Source: Gammaproteobacteria bacterium (GTDB taxonomy: Bacteria > Pseudomonadota > Gammaproteobacteria > Steroidobacterales > Steroidobacteraceae). Taken from it: DNA of 38,951 nucleotides. Both the position numbers and the translations under genes were made by a program. The notes under the pieces were generated by a model, which did not search any database, was not told where the DNA came from, and was given only the letters and a program-made list of their open reading frames with translations. Positions 4,285 to 12,616 of the stretch are shown piece by piece. The stretch covers positions 1 to 38,951 of the forward strand of contig JASHTK010000264.1 of the NCBI GenBank assembly GCA_030040575.1, in the 5' to 3' direction. Position 1 is the first letter of the stretch; the number at the start of each line of letters is the position of its first letter.

Positions 4285-6906
4285 CTAGAAGAGCGAATCG
4301 CCGGCCGCGGTCTGATCCGGCGCGGGCTGGGTCTCGGCCCCGGCGCCGCCCCCCGCGGGCAGGTGATTCACCATGAACGTCTCGAGGATCCCGTCGCGAC
4401 TCTCCGCGCTCACGAGCCGGCCGGTCGTCGGCGAGACGCGCAGCGTGACGAGCCCGTCGGGCATCGGACGGGTCGTCTCCGGCACGCCTCGCAGCGCCTC
4501 GCGCATGAAATAGATCCAGATCGGCAGCGCGGTGCGGCTGCCCTCCTCGGTCTCCCCGAGCGAGCGCTCCTCATCGTAGCCGACCCAGACGGTCGCGACG
4601 AGATTCGGCGTGAATCCGTTGAACCACGCATCGCGCGACTGATTGGTCGTGCCGGTCTTGCCCGCGATATCGTCGCGATGCAGGACGAGCGCCCGCTGCC
4701 CGGTGCCGTGCCGGATCACATCGGCGAGCATGTCGGTCATCAGGTAATCGTTCTGCGGACTGATCACGCGCGGCGCCAGACGGTCCGGCGGCAGGTCCCC
4801 GCGGCCGCCGCGGATCGCGTCCGCGGCGGCGAGCAGATCGGCCACGGACATCGGCTGCGGGCTCGACGGCATCGGGGCGCGCACCGACAGCGGGGAGGCC
4901 GCCGTCGCAGGACCACTCGCTGGCATACCGGCCGGCGCCGCTGAGCTCGCCAGCGGCGAGCCCGCGAGCGCGGGCGTGCCCCCTTGCGCACTCACCGCCC
5001 CGGGGCTGCCCGGCGGCTTGCCGAGGCTCGCGAGGTCCGCCGGCTGCTCGCACGGCGCACAGGCGATCCGCGGCTGCGCCTGCCAGACGACATCCCCTGT
5101 CGGACCCTCGATTCGATCGATGAAGTACGGGTCGACGCGGAAGCCGCCGTTTGCGAAGACCGCGTAGGCCGCGGCCATCTGCAGCGGCGAGGCCTGCAGC
5201 GTCCCGAGCGCGAGCGTGAGATTCTGGGGCAGCTCCTCGCGGGTGAATCCGAACCGCGTCGCGTAGTCCGTCGCGTACGGGACGCCCATCTGTCTCAGCA
5301 GGCGGATCGACGCCAAGTTGCGGGACCACTCGAGCGCCTCGCGCAGGCGAATCGGACCGCGAAAGTCGCGCTCCGAGTCCTCGGGGCGCCAGAGCGTCTC
5401 CATTCCCGGATCGTCGAGCACGACCGGCGTGTCGAGCAGCACCGAGGCGGGAGTGAAACCGGCGTCGAGCGCCGCCGAGTACAGGAACGGCTTGAAGCCG
5501 GACCCCGGCTGGCGCTCGGCCTGCACGGCGCGGTTGTACTTGTACGTGAAGTAGTCGAATCCTCCGACGAGCGCCGCGACGGCGCCGTCGCGCGGATCGA
5601 GGGCGACGAGCGCGGCCTGGGCTTCGGGCACCTGCGCGAGCTGCGCGGTGCGCTCGCCGTCGCTCACGACGTAGACCACGTCACCGCGCGCGAGCACATC
5701 GCCGGCGCTCTGCGGCGTCGGCCCCGGCGGGCCGTCGCCGCGAGCCTTGCGTGCCCACGACAGTCCCTCCCAGCTCACCGTCTGCGCGCCGGCCGCCTTG
5801 ACGAAGACCTCCGCCGAGGTGACGGCGATCGATACCACGACGGCAGGGGTCAGCAGGCCGACCGAGGGGTACGGGTCGAGGAGCGCCTCGAGCTGCTCGG
5901 GCTGCGCTCCCGCGGAGAGATCGACGTGGCCTGCCGGCCCTCGGTATCCGTAGCGGCGGTCGTACTCGATGAGGCCGAGGCGCACGGCGCGGTTCGCGGC
6001 CGTCTGCAGCCGGCCATCGATCGTCGTGTAGACCTTGTATCCGTCCGTCTCGGCGCGCGGCCCGATGCGGCGGAGCATCTCCTGGCGCACCATCTCGGCG
6101 ATGTATTGCCCTTCCACGTCGTACGCCGGACCGTGCTCGGTCGCATCGATCGGCTCCGCGTTCGCGGCCGCCGCCACCTCGGGACTCACGAACCCGAGCT
6201 CGCGCATGCGTCGCAGCACGTAGGTCCTGCGGACCCGCGCGTACTGCGGATTGACGATCGGGTTGTAGCGCGAGGGCACCTGGGCGATGCCCGCGAGCGT
6301 CGCGGCCTGCGCGACGGTGAGCTCGGAGAGCGGCTCGCCGAAGAACGTCTGCGCGGCGGCCGCGACCCCGTAGGCCCGCTCGCCGAAGAAGATGACGTTC
6401 AGGTAGAGGCCGAAGATCTGCTCCTTGGTGAACTCGTGCTCCATGCGGTAGGTGAGGAAGGCTTCCTCGAGCTTGCGCCGCCAGGTCTTGTCGAACGTCA
6501 GGAACATGTTGCGGGCCGCCTGCATGGTGATGGTGCTCGCGCCCTGCGCTCGCTGGCCGGTGGCGACGTCGACGGCGATGGCTCGCAGCAAGCCCCAGTA
6601 ATCGATGCCGTGGTGCTGGAAGAAGCGGTCATCCTCGGCGGCGAGGAAAGCCTGCTTGACGATGAGCGGGATCTGAGCGTAGCTCACCGGGATGCGGCGC
6701 TCGGCCCCGATCTGCGCGATCAGATCGCCGCTGCGGGTATAGACGCGCAGGGGAACCTGCAACTCGACGTTTCGCATCGACTCGACCGAGGGGAGCGACG
6801 GCTCGAGGTACACGTAGGCTGCGGACAGCCCGAAGACCCCGAAAAGTGTGATGAGGATCACACAGCCGGCGACAAATCCCAGAATTCGAACGAATTTCGG
6901 TCTCAC
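4285..6906 (-). CDS. mrcA: Penicillin-binding protein 1A (transglycosylase/transpeptidase)
   Basis: N-terminal TM, AAEDDRFFQHHGID, GASTITMQAARNMFL transglycosylase motifs; RQPGSGFKPFLYSAALD, SRN and KTGTTNQSRDAWFNGF transpeptidase motifs. Confidence 0.95.
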   Translation of the reverse strand: MRPKFVRILGFVAGCVILITLFGVFGLSAAYVYLEPSLPSVESMRNVELQVPLRVYTRSGDLIAQIGAERRIPVSYAQIPLIVKQAFLAAEDDRFFQHHGIDYWGLLRAIAVDVATGQRAQGASTITMQAARNMFLTFDKTWRRKLEEAFLTYRMEHEFTKEQIFGLYLNVIFFGERAYGVAAAAQTFFGEPLSELTVAQAATLAGIAQVPSRYNPIVNPQYARVRRTYVLRRMRELGFVSPEVAAAANAEPIDATEHGPAYDVEGQYIAEMVRQEMLRRIGPRAETDGYKVYTTIDGRLQTAANRAVRLGLIEYDRRYGYRGPAGHVDLSAGAQPEQLEALLDPYPSVGLLTPAVVVSIAVTSAEVFVKAAGAQTVSWEGLSWARKARGDGPPGPTPQSAGDVLARGDVVYVVSDGERTAQLAQVPEAQAALVALDPRDGAVAALVGGFDYFTYKYNRAVQAERQPGSGFKPFLYSAALDAGFTPASVLLDTPVVLDDPGMETLWRPEDSERDFRGPIRLREALEWSRNLASIRLLRQMGVPYATDYATRFGFTREELPQNLTLALGTLQASPLQMAAAYAVFANGGFRVDPYFIDRIEGPTGDVVWQAQPRIACAPCEQPADLASLGKPPGSPGAVSAQGGTPALAGSPLASSAAPAGMPASGPATAASPLSVRAPMPSSPQPMSVADLLAAADAIRGGRGDLPPDRLAPRVISPQNDYLMTDMLADVIRHGTGQRALVLHRDDIAGKTGTTNQSRDAWFNGFTPNLVATVWVGYDEERSLGETEEGSRTALPIWIYFMREALRGVPETTRPMPDGLVTLRVSPTTGRLVSAESRDGILETFMVNHLPAGGGAGAETQPAPDQTAAGDSLF

Positions 6907-7077
6907 GGGGCTCGTCGTGGGCTTGCGCCCGACCTTCCTCGGCGCTGCAACGCGCGACCCGGGCCCGCTAGCTTAAGAGAGCAAGGAGGCCTGTCGAGTC
7001 CGACGGCCAGTTTTACAGAACCGGCATCACAAAAACACTCCACCGGCTTGCGCCGCTTGGCACTGCTATGCATAGTA

Positions 7078-7169
7078 GCCGGCGTTCGAAAGGGCAAACT
7101 CACCGAAAGGTGGGGACGCAAAGCCTCCGGTCTACGGGCGTGAGCGCCTATGACAGCGGGGTTGCCGGC
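7078..7169 (+). ncRNA. c-di-GMP-I (GEMM-I) riboswitch aptamer
   Basis: gccggcgttcgaAAGGGCAAACtcaccGAAAggtgggGACGCAAAGCCTCCGGtctacgggcgtgagcgcctatgacAGCGGGGTTgCCGGC. It has the conserved GGGCAAAC, GACGCAAAGCCTCCGG and AGCGGGGTT blocks, a P2 stem with GAAA tetraloop (7099-7114), a P3 hairpin (about 7130-7154) and a closing P1 GCCGGC/GCCGGC. Matches the family consensus as recalled from the V. cholerae Vc2 aptamer. Confidence 0.93.
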
Positions 7170-7352
7170 GCAAACCTTAAACCATCCGCCTGCCATGGGC
7201 CATGGCGGGCAGGACGCGGTGCCGTCACCCCTCGCTCCCGCTCGCGTTCCGCATGCTCCGGGTGCTCGGCTCCCCAGCGACGCTTGGACCGGTCACGGCG
7301 ACATTCGTTGAATCGGTACGCGAGGAGCGGCCTCACCGCGGCGGGCGCGTTT

Positions 7353-7368
7353 CGTGAGACCTCTCACG
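7353..7368 (+). terminator. Perfect hairpin between GEMM aptamer and pilM (candidate expression-platform terminator)
   Basis: CGTGAGA-CC-TCTCACG followed by GTCTATTTAACTT. Confidence 0.35.
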
Positions 7369-7451
7369 GTCTATTTAACTTAGGCTGAGATATAGTGACT
7401 CCGGGGTCTCTCACACGGCGGACGCTAGCGCGCGCAAGTAACTGATAAGGA

Positions 7452-8522
7452 ATGAGAATGTTCCTATTTCAGCGCAGGTACCGCCCGCTGCTCGGACTCG
7501 ACATCACCACCTCGTCCGTGAAGCTCATCGAGCTTGCGATGGCGGGGGGCCAGTACCGCGTCGAGGCGTACGCCGCGGAGCCGACGCCTCAGAACGCCAT
7601 CAACGAGAAGGCGATCGTCGATGCCGAGGCCGTCGGCGAGGCCGTGCGCCGCGCGATCAAGCGCTCCGGCGCTCGCAGCCGCGAGGTCGCCATCGCGATC
7701 AGCGGTGACGCCGCCATCACCAAGGTGATTCAAATGCCCCGCAGCCTGCGCTCGGGGGACCTCGAGGCACAGGTGGAGATGCAGGCCGATCAGTACATCC
7801 CCTTCCCCATGGACGAGGTGAGCTACGACTTCGAGGTGCTCGGGCCGTCGGAGAAGGACCCGGACACGAGCGACGTGCTCCTCGTCGCGACGCGCACGGA
7901 GAACGTGGATCAGCGCCAGGCGGCGGTGAACGCGGCCGGGCTTTCCGCGAAGATCGTGGACGTCGAGGCCTTCGCCCTCGAGAACGCCTGCAAGCTCATG
8001 ACGCATCAGATGCCGGACGGCGGCATCGACCGGACGATCGCCGTGATCGACTTCGGCGCGAGCAGCACGACCTTCAGCGTGCTCCGGAACCTCAAGATCG
8101 TCTACACGCGCGATTTCGCCTTCGGCGGCCAGCAGCTGACCGAGGAGATCATGCGCACCTACGGACTGTCGATGGAGGAGGCGGGCCGCGCGAAGAAAGA
8201 GGGCGGGCTGCCCGCGAACTACCAGACCGAGGTGCTCGACCCCTTCATCGACGACATGACGCAGCAGGTGAGCCGCTCCCTGCAGTTCTACCTCGCCTCC
8301 GGGTCCGGGCGCGAGCAACCGGAGAAGATTCTCATCTGCGGGGGCTGCGCGAACATCGCCGGCGTCGCCGACGTGATCTCGAGCCGCGTCGGCATCGCGG
8401 GCGAGAAGGGCGATCCGCTCGGCCAGATGAAGCTGTCCTCGCGCGCCAAGGCCCAGGCGGTGCAGCGCGACGCCACGGCGCTTCTCACGGCGTGCGGCCT
8501 CGCGCTGCGGAGCTTCGACTGA
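7452..8522 (+). CDS. pilM: Type IV pilus assembly protein PilM
   Basis: LLGLDITTSSVKLIELA, actin-like ATPase fold, DFGASSTTFSVL, followed by pilNOPQ. Confidence 0.96.
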   Translation: MRMFLFQRRYRPLLGLDITTSSVKLIELAMAGGQYRVEAYAAEPTPQNAINEKAIVDAEAVGEAVRRAIKRSGARSREVAIAISGDAAITKVIQMPRSLRSGDLEAQVEMQADQYIPFPMDEVSYDFEVLGPSEKDPDTSDVLLVATRTENVDQRQAAVNAAGLSAKIVDVEAFALENACKLMTHQMPDGGIDRTIAVIDFGASSTTFSVLRNLKIVYTRDFAFGGQQLTEEIMRTYGLSMEEAGRAKKEGGLPANYQTEVLDPFIDDMTQQVSRSLQFYLASGSGREQPEKILICGGCANIAGVADVISSRVGIAGEKGDPLGQMKLSSRAKAQAVQRDATALLTACGLALRSFD

Positions 8523-8523
8523 C

Positions 8524-9114
8524 ATGCCGCGGATCAACCTACTGCCCTGGCGCGAAGCCGAGCGGCGCGAGCGCAAGCTGCATTTCGGGATCGCCCTCGG
8601 CGGGGCGACCGTCGCCGCGATCGCGTTCACCTTCATCGTGTACCTCATGGTGAGCTCGATGATCAGCGCCCAGCAGCGCCGCAACGACCTGCTGCGCGGC
8701 GCGATCCGCGTGCTCGACAAGCAGATCGAGGAGATCAACAGCCTCGAGAGCGAGAAGCAGCAGTTCATCGCGCGCATGGAGATCATCGAGAAGCTGCAGC
8801 GCTCGCGGCCCGAGATCGTGCACCTCTTCGACACCATCGCCCGCACGGTGCCCGATGGGGTCTACCTCACGGGCGTCACCGAGAAGGGCACCCATTTGAA
8901 GTTCGAGGGGGTCGCCCAATCGAGCACGCGCGTGTCGGCCTTCATGCGCAACATCGACTCCTCCGAGTGGCTCACCGATCCGGCCCTCGAGGTCATCGAC
9001 GGCGCGAACTTCGTGCTCGACGCCGAGCAGGTGAGCTCCGGCGCGAGCGACGACACGCCGTCCGTCGCCGGCAACGACGCTCCGAGCGTCGTCCGCAGGG
9101 GAGAGGCGCCGTGA
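8524..9114 (+). CDS. pilN: Type IV pilus assembly protein PilN
   Basis: MPRINLLPWREAERRERKLHF...; single TM; operon context. Confidence 0.95.
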   Translation: MPRINLLPWREAERRERKLHFGIALGGATVAAIAFTFIVYLMVSSMISAQQRRNDLLRGAIRVLDKQIEEINSLESEKQQFIARMEIIEKLQRSRPEIVHLFDTIARTVPDGVYLTGVTEKGTHLKFEGVAQSSTRVSAFMRNIDSSEWLTDPALEVIDGANFVLDAEQVSSGASDDTPSVAGNDAPSVVRRGEAP

Positions 9115-9770
9115 ATCTGCTCGAGGAGCTGCGCTCGCTCGATCCGCGCGACCCGGGACGCTGGCCGTTCGCCGTCCGCGCGGGCGCGGTCGGCGCGTGG
9201 CTCGCCGTCCTCACGGCGTTCCTCACGTACATGTTCGTGTGGCAGACCGAGCGCGTGCGGCTGCAGCGCTACCAGGACGAGGAGCAGCAGCTGCGCAGCG
9301 AGTACCGGACCAAGCACGAGAAGGCGGTGAACCTGCTCGTCTACAAGCAGCAGCTCAACGACATCGAGACCTCCTTCGGCGCGCTGCTGCGCCAGCTGCC
9401 GGGCAAGACCGAGGTGCCGAACCTGCTGGTGGACATCTCGCAGACGGGCCTCGCGGCCGGCTTGCAGCAGAAGCTGTTCCAGCCCGGCGCGGAGGTGAAG
9501 CAGGACTTCTACGCCGAGCTGCCCATCAAGATCAGCCTCACCGGCAGCTACCACCAGTTCGGCGAGTTCGTGAGCGGCATCGCCGCGCTGCCGCGCATCG
9601 TCACGCTGCACGACATCTCGATCAAGCCGGACTCCAAGGGCACGTACGACGAGCTCACGCTCGACCTCACGGCGAAGACGTACCGGTATCTCGACGAGGA
9701 GGAGCTCGCGGCCGCGGAGGCGCAGAAGGCGGCGAGCGAGCACAAGAGCCGCCGCCGGGGCGCGCATTGA
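9111..9770 (+). CDS. pilO: Type IV pilus assembly protein PilO (GTG start overlapping the pilN stop, GTGA)
   Basis: MNLLEELRSLDPRDPGRWPFAVR...; YHQFGEFVSGIAALPRIVTLHDISI typical of PilO; the listed ORF start 8967 is too far upstream. Confidence 0.94.
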   Translation: MNLLEELRSLDPRDPGRWPFAVRAGAVGAWLAVLTAFLTYMFVWQTERVRLQRYQDEEQQLRSEYRTKHEKAVNLLVYKQQLNDIETSFGALLRQLPGKTEVPNLLVDISQTGLAAGLQQKLFQPGAEVKQDFYAELPIKISLTGSYHQFGEFVSGIAALPRIVTLHDISIKPDSKGTYDELTLDLTAKTYRYLDEEELAAAEAQKAASEHKSRRRGAH

Positions 9771-9783
9771 TGGAGGACGCCGC

Positions 9784-10365
9784 GTGAGACTTGGGGGTCG
9801 CCTCAAGATGAGCCACATACTCGGTCGCCGGCCCACACGGATCGGCCCGCCAACGCCGGGGCGCCGCGCCGCCGCGGCGCTCGCCGCGCTTGCTGCGCTC
9901 GCGTGCGCCGCCCTCACGGCCTGCTCGAGCGCCGACGACCAGCTGCAGCAGTTCATCAACGAGGTGAAGCGCGAGCCGGGAGGGCGCGTCGAGTCGCTGC
10001 CCGAGCTCAAGCCCTACCAGACCTTCGTGTACTCGGCGGAGGACCTGCGCTCGCCGTTCGTTCCGAGCGGACCGTCCTCCGGCTCGACGCTGCGGCCGGA
10101 TCCGAAGCGCAACCGGGAATTCCTCGAGCAGTTCTCGCTCGATACGCTGAAGATGGTCGGCACGCTCAAGCTCGGCGAGCTGGTGTACGGCCTGGTCGAG
10201 ACCCGCGGCGGCCTCGTGAACCGCGTCGTCGCCGGCAACTACATCGGGCAGAACGACGGCAAGATCACCGCGGTCACCGCATCGAAGATCCTCATTCGCG
10301 AAATCGTTCCGGACGGCACCGGCGGCTACATCGAGAGATCCGCCGCGCTCGCCCTGAGCAACTAG
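9784..10365 (+). CDS. pilP: Type IV pilus assembly lipoprotein PilP
   Basis: Lipobox-like LTACSS; FVYSAEDLRSPF, LETLKMVGTL-like, GNYIGQNDGKI. Confidence 0.94.
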   Translation: MRLGGRLKMSHILGRRPTRIGPPTPGRRAAAALAALAALACAALTACSSADDQLQQFINEVKREPGGRVESLPELKPYQTFVYSAEDLRSPFVPSGPSSGSTLRPDPKRNREFLEQFSLDTLKMVGTLKLGELVYGLVETRGGLVNRVVAGNYIGQNDGKITAVTASKILIREIVPDGTGGYIERSAALALSN

Positions 10366-10396: not shown

Positions 10397-12616
10397 ATGA
10401 AACGCCACAGCCCGACCCGCAAGCTTCGCGTGCTCGCCTGGGCCGTTGCCGCGCTCGCGCTCGGGGCGCTCAGCGCGCCGCTGCGCGCCGCGGATGCCCG
10501 CACCCTGCAGTCGATCGACGTGCAGCCGCTGCCGGGCCAGCAACTGCGGCTCACCCTGCACCTGTCAGCGGCCGCGCCGCAGCCGCTCTCCTTCACCATC
10601 GACAACCCGGCGCGCATCTCGATCGATCTACCGCAGACGTCACTCGCCCTGCCCTCGCGCCGGATCGACGTGCACGCCGGCGGTCTCGACACCGTGCTCG
10701 CCGCCGAGGACAAGGATCGCAGCCGCATCGTGCTCGAGCTCGACAAGATGCTGCCGTACACGACGCAGGTGGCGGGCAACGACGTGATCGTGATGCTCGG
10801 CGACACGAGCGTGGCGCAGGCGGCCGATACAGCGGCGGGGGCGGGCGCCCCTGCGACGGATCAGGCGGCGGCCTCGGGCTCGGCGCCTGCCGACACCGCA
10901 GCCCCTGCCGAGACACCGGCCGCGGCGTCCTCCGACAGCGGGGATGAGGCGAGCGCGGTGCGCGCGATCCGCAGCATCGACTTTCGCCGCAGCGCCGATG
11001 GCGGCGGCCGGGTGATCGTGCAGCTCACCGATCCGCACACCGAGATCAACCTGCGCCAGCTCGGCGATCAGATCGTCGTGGACTTCGCGGACACCGAGGT
11101 GCCCGCCGCGTATGCGCGCCGCTACGACGCGACCGACTTCGGCACGCCCGTCACGGGCTTCGATGTGACCCAATCGGGCGGCAACACGGAGATCGTGATC
11201 AACGCGACGGGCGAGTACGAGCAGCTCGCGTACCAGTCCGACACCCAGTACGTCGTCGAGGTGCAGCCGCAGCGCCAGGCGGCCGCCTCGACGGGCGAGG
11301 CGCGGCGCCAGTACACCGGCGAGCGCATCACGCTCAACTTCCAGGACATCGACACGCGCACCGTGCTGCAGCTGCTCGCCGACACGAGCGGCCAGAACAT
11401 CGTGGTGAGCGACTCGGTGAAGGGCACCGTGACGCTGCGCCTGCAGAACGTGCCCTGGGATCAGGCGCTCGACATCGTGCTGCAGACCAAGGGTCTCGGC
11501 AAGCGCCAGGAGGGCAACGTCATCATCGTCGCGCCGGCGGACGAGCTGGCCGCGCGCGAGAAGGAGGAGCTCGCCGCGAGCAAGGACGTGCAGGAGCTCG
11601 AGGCGGTGCAGACCGAGTTCCTGCAGGTGAACTACGCGAAGGCCGCCGACCTCGCCGCGCTCATCAAGTCCCGCACGAGCTCGATGCTCTCGGCGCGCGG
11701 CAGCGTGTCGGTCGATGCGCGCACGAACACGCTGCTGCTGCAGGACACGCCGGAGCGCCTTGCCGACATCCGCCGGATGGTCGCGGCGCTCGACATTCCG
11801 ATCCGCCAGGTGCTCATCGAGGCCCGCGTGGTCATCGTCAACGATGACTTCGAGCGCGAGCTCGGCACGGTTCTCGGCCTGACGGGGGCGACGCAGAACG
11901 GCCCGGGCGGCCTCATCACGACGAGCGGGACGGCCGCGGGCACGGACGAGATTCTCTCCTCGACGATCTCCGGGCAGCAGTTCCCCGCCACCATTCCGAC
12001 GGGGACCAACGCGACGAACCGCTACAACGTGAACCTGCCGACGCCCGATCAGGCCGGCAGCATCTCCTTTGGCGTGCTCGGCTCGGACTACCTGGTCGAC
12101 CTCGAGCTCTCCGCCGCGCAGCTCGAGACGCGCGCGGACATCGTCTCCGCGCCGCGGGTCGTCACGGCGAACCAGAAGAAGGCCGTGATCCTCCAGGGCG
12201 TCGAGATTCCGTACCAGGAGTCGGCATCCTCCGGCGCGACGACCGTCCAGTTCGAGCAGGCGGTGCTCTCGCTCACCGTGACACCGCAGATCACGCCGGA
12301 CAACCGCATCATCCTCGATCTCGACGTGAAGGACGACAGCGTGGGAACGGTGGTCGTCGAGTCGGGCGGCGTCAACGTGCCGGCGATCAATACCCAGGAG
12401 GTCACCGACCAGGTCGTGGTGAACGACGGCCAGACGGTCGTGCTCGGCGGCATCCTGCAGACGACGCACCGCGTGCAGGAGACGAAGATCCCGGTCCTCG
12501 GCGACATTCCCGTGCTCGGGCACCTGTTCAAGCAGACCACCCGGACGAACGACAAGGACGAGCTCCTGATCTTCGTGACGCCGAAGATCGTGCACGAGGG
12601 CGTGACGGTCTACTGA
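10397..12616 (+). CDS. pilQ: Type IV pilus secretin PilQ
   Basis: AMIN-type N-terminus, ITLNFQDIDTRTVLQLLADTSGQNIVVSDSVKGTVTLRL, VLIEARVVIVND, VVNDGQTVVLGGILQTT, LGDIPVLGHLFK. Confidence 0.97.
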   Translation: MKRHSPTRKLRVLAWAVAALALGALSAPLRAADARTLQSIDVQPLPGQQLRLTLHLSAAAPQPLSFTIDNPARISIDLPQTSLALPSRRIDVHAGGLDTVLAAEDKDRSRIVLELDKMLPYTTQVAGNDVIVMLGDTSVAQAADTAAGAGAPATDQAAASGSAPADTAAPAETPAAASSDSGDEASAVRAIRSIDFRRSADGGGRVIVQLTDPHTEINLRQLGDQIVVDFADTEVPAAYARRYDATDFGTPVTGFDVTQSGGNTEIVINATGEYEQLAYQSDTQYVVEVQPQRQAAASTGEARRQYTGERITLNFQDIDTRTVLQLLADTSGQNIVVSDSVKGTVTLRLQNVPWDQALDIVLQTKGLGKRQEGNVIIVAPADELAAREKEELAASKDVQELEAVQTEFLQVNYAKAADLAALIKSRTSSMLSARGSVSVDARTNTLLLQDTPERLADIRRMVAALDIPIRQVLIEARVVIVNDDFERELGTVLGLTGATQNGPGGLITTSGTAAGTDEILSSTISGQQFPATIPTGTNATNRYNVNLPTPDQAGSISFGVLGSDYLVDLELSAAQLETRADIVSAPRVVTANQKKAVILQGVEIPYQESASSGATTVQFEQAVLSLTVTPQITPDNRIILDLDVKDDSVGTVVVESGGVNVPAINTQEVTDQVVVNDGQTVVLGGILQTTHRVQETKIPVLGDIPVLGHLFKQTTRTNDKDELLIFVTPKIVHEGVTVY

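Follow-up and report, generated by a model that had tools for sequence, protein, structure and literature searches.

A GEMM-I riboswitch upstream of the pilMNOPQ operon, conserved across a gammaproteobacterial order, and a probable Crp/Vfr-type promoter between aptamer and pilM

GEMM-I riboswitches at pilus genes are already known from Geobacter, as the preliminary description of the locus studied here had stated, and control of pilM in that genus is of the cGAMP type (PMC6456294, PMC9262584). The GEMM-Ib riboswitch of Geobacter metallireducens pilM is a cGAMP ON-switch in which the intrinsic terminator captures the ligand-contacting C75 (PMC9262584), whilst in G. sulfurreducens the pilMNOP genes fall 2-3 fold once gacA is lost (PMC6456294). 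An A20G change in a Geobacter GEMM-Ib aptamer moves its selectivity from cGAMP to c-di-GMP (PMC6456294), position 20 being described as a selectivity factor and no hard filter (PMC9262584). Two further systems are relevant: Cd1 of Clostridioides difficile, a c-di-GMP-I OFF-switch that precedes flagellar genes, carries a terminator and has no detected P1 (PMC9262584), and Bc1 of Bacillus thuringiensis, which has a long leader and two rho-independent terminators in its expression platform (PMC11218506). We found no description of a GEMM-I before pilM in Gammaproteobacteria in the open literature, which is weak evidence of absence as subscription papers were mostly outside this coverage. The G20 type of aptamer at a pilM operon, its order-wide conservation with losses and the two-promoter arrangement presented below therefore appear to be new, as far as we are aware.

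Within the 38,951 nt of Steroidobacteraceae DNA analysed here (hereafter the window), cmscan against Rfam 15 returned one match above gathering score, to RF01051 (c-di-GMP-I, GEMM-I) at 7083-7169 on the + strand (85 bits, where 35 is the gathering score; E 1.5e-15), covering the model end to end (1-87). The GEMM-I identity proposed in the preliminary description is upheld, and all of the conserved blocks it quoted are present in the sequence. Covariation across 50 distinct pilM-linked sequences scored 0.121 compared to 0.085 when shuffled, with none of 500 shuffles as high, and all slid controls gave lower covariation than the pilM-linked aptamer helices. The stretch is a genuine GEMM-I aptamer and the window riboswitch an ordinary RF01051 member. 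Carrying over the numbering of Vc2, we take G20 to be 7093, A47 to be 7120 and C92/C93 to be 7165/7166. Position 7093 is the middle G of AGGGC (stretch AGGGCAAAC) and the G20 column is G in 49 of the 50 distinct pilM-linked sequences, in agreement with the earlier assignment to the G20 rather than the A20 type. Together with the A20G precedent in Geobacter, this G makes c-di-GMP, rather than cGAMP, the likely ligand of the window aptamer.

The aptamer sits between a divergent gene for a class A penicillin-binding protein (4285-6906, minus strand) and pilMNOPQ on the + strand (Table 1). All five pil genes follow it co-directionally and were recognized by Pfam (PilM_2, PilN, PilO, PilP and Secretin), and the previously estimated distance of about 280 nt to pilM, the head of the operon, holds, at 282 nt when counted to ATG 7452 and 288 nt when counted to ATG 7458. 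Relatives keep a pilM start that corresponds to ATG 7458, with the Shine-Dalgarno sequence AAGGA at 7447-7451, rather than ATG 7452. On the other side of the aptamer, a conserved TTTCACAGAAA-like stretch precedes the distal promoter of relatives; in the window it lies at 7003-7040 and reads ATCACAAAAA, and perhaps it is part of the promoter of the divergent penicillin-binding protein gene.

Table 1. Coordinates of observed and predicted features in the window
Feature	Position	Strand	Remarks
Predicted sigma70-like distal promoter	7048..7076	+	TTGCGC 7048-7053, N17, CATAGT 7071-7076
GEMM-I aptamer	7083..7169	+	RF01051 match; covariation over 50 distinct pilM-linked sequences
Candidate post-aptamer hairpin P4	7166..7224	+	Outer stem CGGCGC 7166-7171 / GUGCCG 7219-7224; anchored-helix test
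Conserved leader block B, CTTGGAC-N13-ATTCGTTGA	7283..7311	+	Found only in riboswitch-bearing loci
Crp/Vfr-like candidate operator, CGTGA-N6-TCACG	7353..7368	+	Conserved before pilM with or without riboswitch
Predicted -10 (TATAGT) of pilM-proximal promoter	7391..7396	+	TATATAGT/TATATA-like element, fixed spacing from operator
pilM	7452..8522	+	PilM_2 E 5e-127
pilN	8524..9114	+	PilN E 2e-19
pilO	8967..9770	+	PilO E 4e-54; true start probably near 9114
pilP	9784..10365	+	PilP E 3e-44
pilQ secretin	10397..12616	+	Secretin E 5e-50, plus AMIN, Secretin_N, STN

To place the arrangement among relatives, which by PilM were named MAGs labelled Gammaproteobacteria or Steroidobacteraceae, 80 pilM loci were taken from named genomes, of which two were cut off upstream of pilM and 78 were usable. 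With a covariance model trained on 31 of the family's aptamers, a full aptamer was identified upstream of pilM in the window as well as in 50 of the 78 usable relatives (Steroidobacteraceae-type), with one locus that has Ns across the riboswitch stretch (L110) counted as being without it. Across the riboswitch-bearing loci the aptamer ends 224-386 nt before pilM. Another 29 pilM loci from the order were examined and 11 carried the aptamer, seven of these in four other families. Judged by these matches, the linkage of GEMM-I to pilM is conserved across a gammaproteobacterial order, in at least five families. On a PilM tree (FastTree, 106 rows, support weak in places) the riboswitch trait requires 11 changes, compared to 33.8 with shuffled labels, and a 21-row clade nested among riboswitch carriers has no member with a riboswitch. 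As read from the tree and the alignments, the riboswitch before pilM is subject to clade-wide loss and some aptamers are decaying. Degenerate GEMM-I copies were seen before pilM in L095 (1924-2051, 31 bits) and L104 (3170-3236, 27 bits), and the closest kin of both carry intact pilM aptamers.

Immediately upstream of the aptamer, TGCATAGTA anchors 37 aligned loci, all in register for a -35 that contains TTG and is separated from CATAGT by 17 bp, and in other families the same place is taken by CTTGCC..TGCATATT or CTTGCC..TGCATAGT. This distal element, which like the proximal one below is called as a promoter by pattern and conservation, was not picked up by a stricter TTGACA/TATAAT scan. Because the conserved -10 lies at 7071-7076, the distal RNA is predicted to start near 7083, where the Rfam match also begins. 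A sigma54 promoter at TTGGCAC..TGCA (7057-7072) was considered and rejected, since its spacing is one base short and the conserved register is that of sigma70. The predicted start also bears on the aptamer boundary, earlier placed at 7078 with a closing P1, a helix that the RF01051 model does not include. In the folded sequence the extra GCCGG can indeed take part in a GCCGGC/GCCGGC pairing, with its 3' strand at 7164-7169, but with +1 near 7083 those bases would probably lie before the RNA start. No own-versus-swapped signal for P1 was found in the pilM-linked aptamers of relatives, and a P1 built with the post-aptamer strand was rejected on the same ground. The missing P1 signal is consistent with the promoter occupying the 5' strand of this helix.

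A second promoter-like element lies between the aptamer and pilM. Counting the window, 69 of 79 loci have an exact GTGA-N6-TCAC before pilM, riboswitch present or absent, mostly followed by ATTTAAC and then an extended -10 of the type TG[ac]TATATA, again with or without a riboswitch; lineages that lack the riboswitch kept both the GTGA-N6-TCAC and the -10. Loci from other families show no constraint on the six bases at the centre of the operator (GTGAATGAGGTCAC, GTGATGCCCATCAC). This speaks against conservation of an RNA hairpin, and what remains are half-sites of the Crp/Vfr/Clp group. The same observations weigh on a Geobacter-like alternative, in which this palindrome (CGUGAG-N4-CUCACG, then UUCAAUUU) would be the terminator of the riboswitch. 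It was called terminator-like by a pattern scan and its inner pair is often retained in the clade of the window, but the element is equally conserved in riboswitch-less loci and other families lose the inner pairing, with only GTGA/TCAC remaining; on these two counts the palindrome was rejected as a riboswitch terminator, a role that we regard as highly improbable.

If the last TATATA base is set at -7, the operator centre falls at about -41.5, the class II position, the start being predicted by pattern; in the genus of the window one base fewer separates operator and -10, and the operator is off that position by about one base. Its flanks are C/G, compared to T/A in the Crp consensus (TGTGA-N6-TCACA), and another dimeric regulator could therefore bind it. 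A Crp/Vfr-type protein was found in 23 of the 26 relatives' genomes searched, and in the window genome a Crp-type protein was seen as a C-terminal fragment at a contig end. When one full-length Crp-type protein of a relative was compared to E. coli CRP, Vfr and Xanthomonas Clp, the scores were 258, 253 and 213 bits respectively, and this greater closeness to CRP/Vfr makes a cAMP-type regulator likelier than a c-di-GMP-type one. The pilM-proximal promoter is thus probably activated by a cAMP-binding Crp/Vfr-type protein, and pilM can probably be transcribed from it without the riboswitch.

This second element alters how far the riboswitch is expected to reach. The preliminary description had c-di-GMP controlling the whole operon at the RNA level, a scheme with a single promoter upstream of the riboswitch through which c-di-GMP would gate all pilMNOPQ expression. 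The aptamer itself, its position adjoining the co-directional operon and the conserved linkage all stand, and the only strong promoter-like site specific to riboswitch loci is the distal one. Against complete gating, GTGA-N6-TCAC plus a -10 lies between riboswitch and pilM in nearly all loci and riboswitch-less clades need a promoter at the proximal site, so that exclusive control appears unlikely; retention of the proximal element in those lineages indicates that the riboswitch probably governs the distal transcript only. We favour, with a probability of roughly 0.55, an additive leader with two promoters, in which a c-di-GMP-sensing distal transcript is combined with the probably Crp-dependent proximal promoter. 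The distal transcript would start with the aptamer or a few bases ahead of it and head towards pilMNOPQ, and binding of c-di-GMP would change the share of it that reaches pilM. Control would be exerted during elongation through the ~280-nt leader, with no classical hairpin-plus-U terminator, and c-di-GMP-dependent expression would be added on top of Crp-dependent expression. c-di-GMP is generally linked with surface life, and for this reason, together with the Geobacter pilM case, our guess leans slightly towards an ON-switch.

The leader itself is strongly divergent in sequence between clades, and, as regards a role for Rho, its C content was only slightly above G in the subset of loci computed. 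Block B occurs in a single copy in the genome and belongs to no Rfam family, and in relatives a block C (CGTGACGC..TCGGCAGT, ~7320-7350 by window position) is likewise present only with the riboswitch; other clades have retained the riboswitch but show no block B. An intrinsic terminator before the operator, as a hairpin plus T-run, was found in one of 51 leaders and not in that of the window, where the two terminator-like pattern matches are the operator itself and an overlapping stretch. With no intrinsic terminator in the leader, the mechanism of Geobacter pilM does not transfer. The length of the leader (224-386 nt), the complete promoter downstream of it and the restriction of blocks B and C to riboswitch loci would suit a distal RNA that ends in the leader as a small RNA, or that interferes with the proximal promoter, with c-di-GMP setting its reach. 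Such a small RNA has no terminator where it would end, however, and the clades differ strongly in leader sequence, making this alternative rather improbable.

A riboswitch-controlled small protein encoded between block B and pilM was also considered, as the spacings that separate block B from the promoter element in 18 loci have seven distinct lengths, every one of them 1 mod 3, and one frame is open in 17 of these loci. Yet codon positions 1, 2 and 3 change equally (676/657/683), the frame is broken in the closest relative (L032) and is not maintained past the promoter element, and some riboswitch-keeping clades are without block B altogether. The small protein was rejected for its lack of codon-position bias and for the frame broken in L032, and we give it very little credence.

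Structure beyond the aptamer was sought in several ways. A helix with its 5' strand starting from C93 and closing ~30-90 nt later did better than dinucleotide shuffles in a set of 29 representatives (Fisher p 1.4e-4), eight of which had p <= 0.05, whilst the window's own P4 was not significant alone in this anchored-helix test (p 0.65). The strands differ by clade, being CGGUGCGGAAG/CUUCCGCACCG in L042, CGAAGC/GCUUCG in L157 and CAGACC/GGUCUG in L094. A post-aptamer hairpin P4 that would start at the pocket base C93 in relatives is only a lead, because anchoring at C93 was chosen after the P1 result had been seen and relatedness was handled solely by picking representatives. RNAalifold on the leader gave nothing besides the aptamer, and the Rfam search showed no other RNA family in 7000-7500. 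Long-range pairing between aptamer and leader was rejected as a platform, having no excess over shuffles (mean z 0.19), and an antiterminator formed by the P2 strand CUCAC with GUGAG of the palindrome was set aside on the argument that CCCAC/CCCAU takes the place of CUCAC in other clades. The fullest combination, in which a cAMP-Crp/Vfr promoter and an upstream c-di-GMP riboswitch share one leader, P1 is replaced by P4 at C93 and control is by terminator-free read-through, is put forward tentatively, as a possibility against which we would still bet.

Beyond pilM, GEMM-I was found in 83 of 100 genomes of the family and, scattered, in 45 of 275 genomes of the class. The other GEMM-I of the family precede genes for M23 peptidase, Ig/fn3 adhesin-like, SPOR and redoxin proteins. 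These (e.g. L001, L004, L006, L010 and L014) share with the pilM-linked aptamers the same core and a promoter directly before the aptamer, but they have a plain P1 (CGTG/CACG type) and lie mostly nearer to their genes (0-220 nt; adhesin-like, M23 peptidase and SPOR). The window genome (3.1 Mb, 83% complete) has one further GEMM-I, at L001 1501-1586 (G000:C248:1706-1791), 95 nt before an open frame of at least 468 aa with no Pfam match; genes placed like this one in two relatives (L018 and L021) encode SPOR domains. One genome of the same order (G104, family f6) held fifteen GEMM-I matches.

The presence of a c-di-GMP-type aptamer at the same operon as that of Geobacter, in at least five families, suggests convergence or an old partnership. 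Its tandem arrangement with a Crp-like promoter would make the combination of c-di-GMP and cAMP testable at one pilus operon, for which the lost and decaying aptamer copies are natural controls. The locus also cautions against assuming that an operon preceded by an aptamer is transcribed entirely under its control.

Compared to the systems described elsewhere, the locus resembles Bc1 in its long leader between aptamer and gene, the difference being two rho-independent terminators in Bc1 and none found in the window. With Cd1 it shares a c-di-GMP-type GEMM-I, and the pilM-linked aptamers may resemble Cd1 in having no P1, whereas Cd1 is an OFF-switch with a terminator that precedes flagellar genes in a Gram-positive bacterium. 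The Geobacter pilM riboswitch, from a different phylum, is alike in placing a GEMM-I aptamer before the pilM operon on the same strand. It differs in responding to cGAMP and using a terminator, whereas in the window G20 predicts c-di-GMP, the leader is free of a terminator and a second conserved promoter element stands between the aptamer and pilM.
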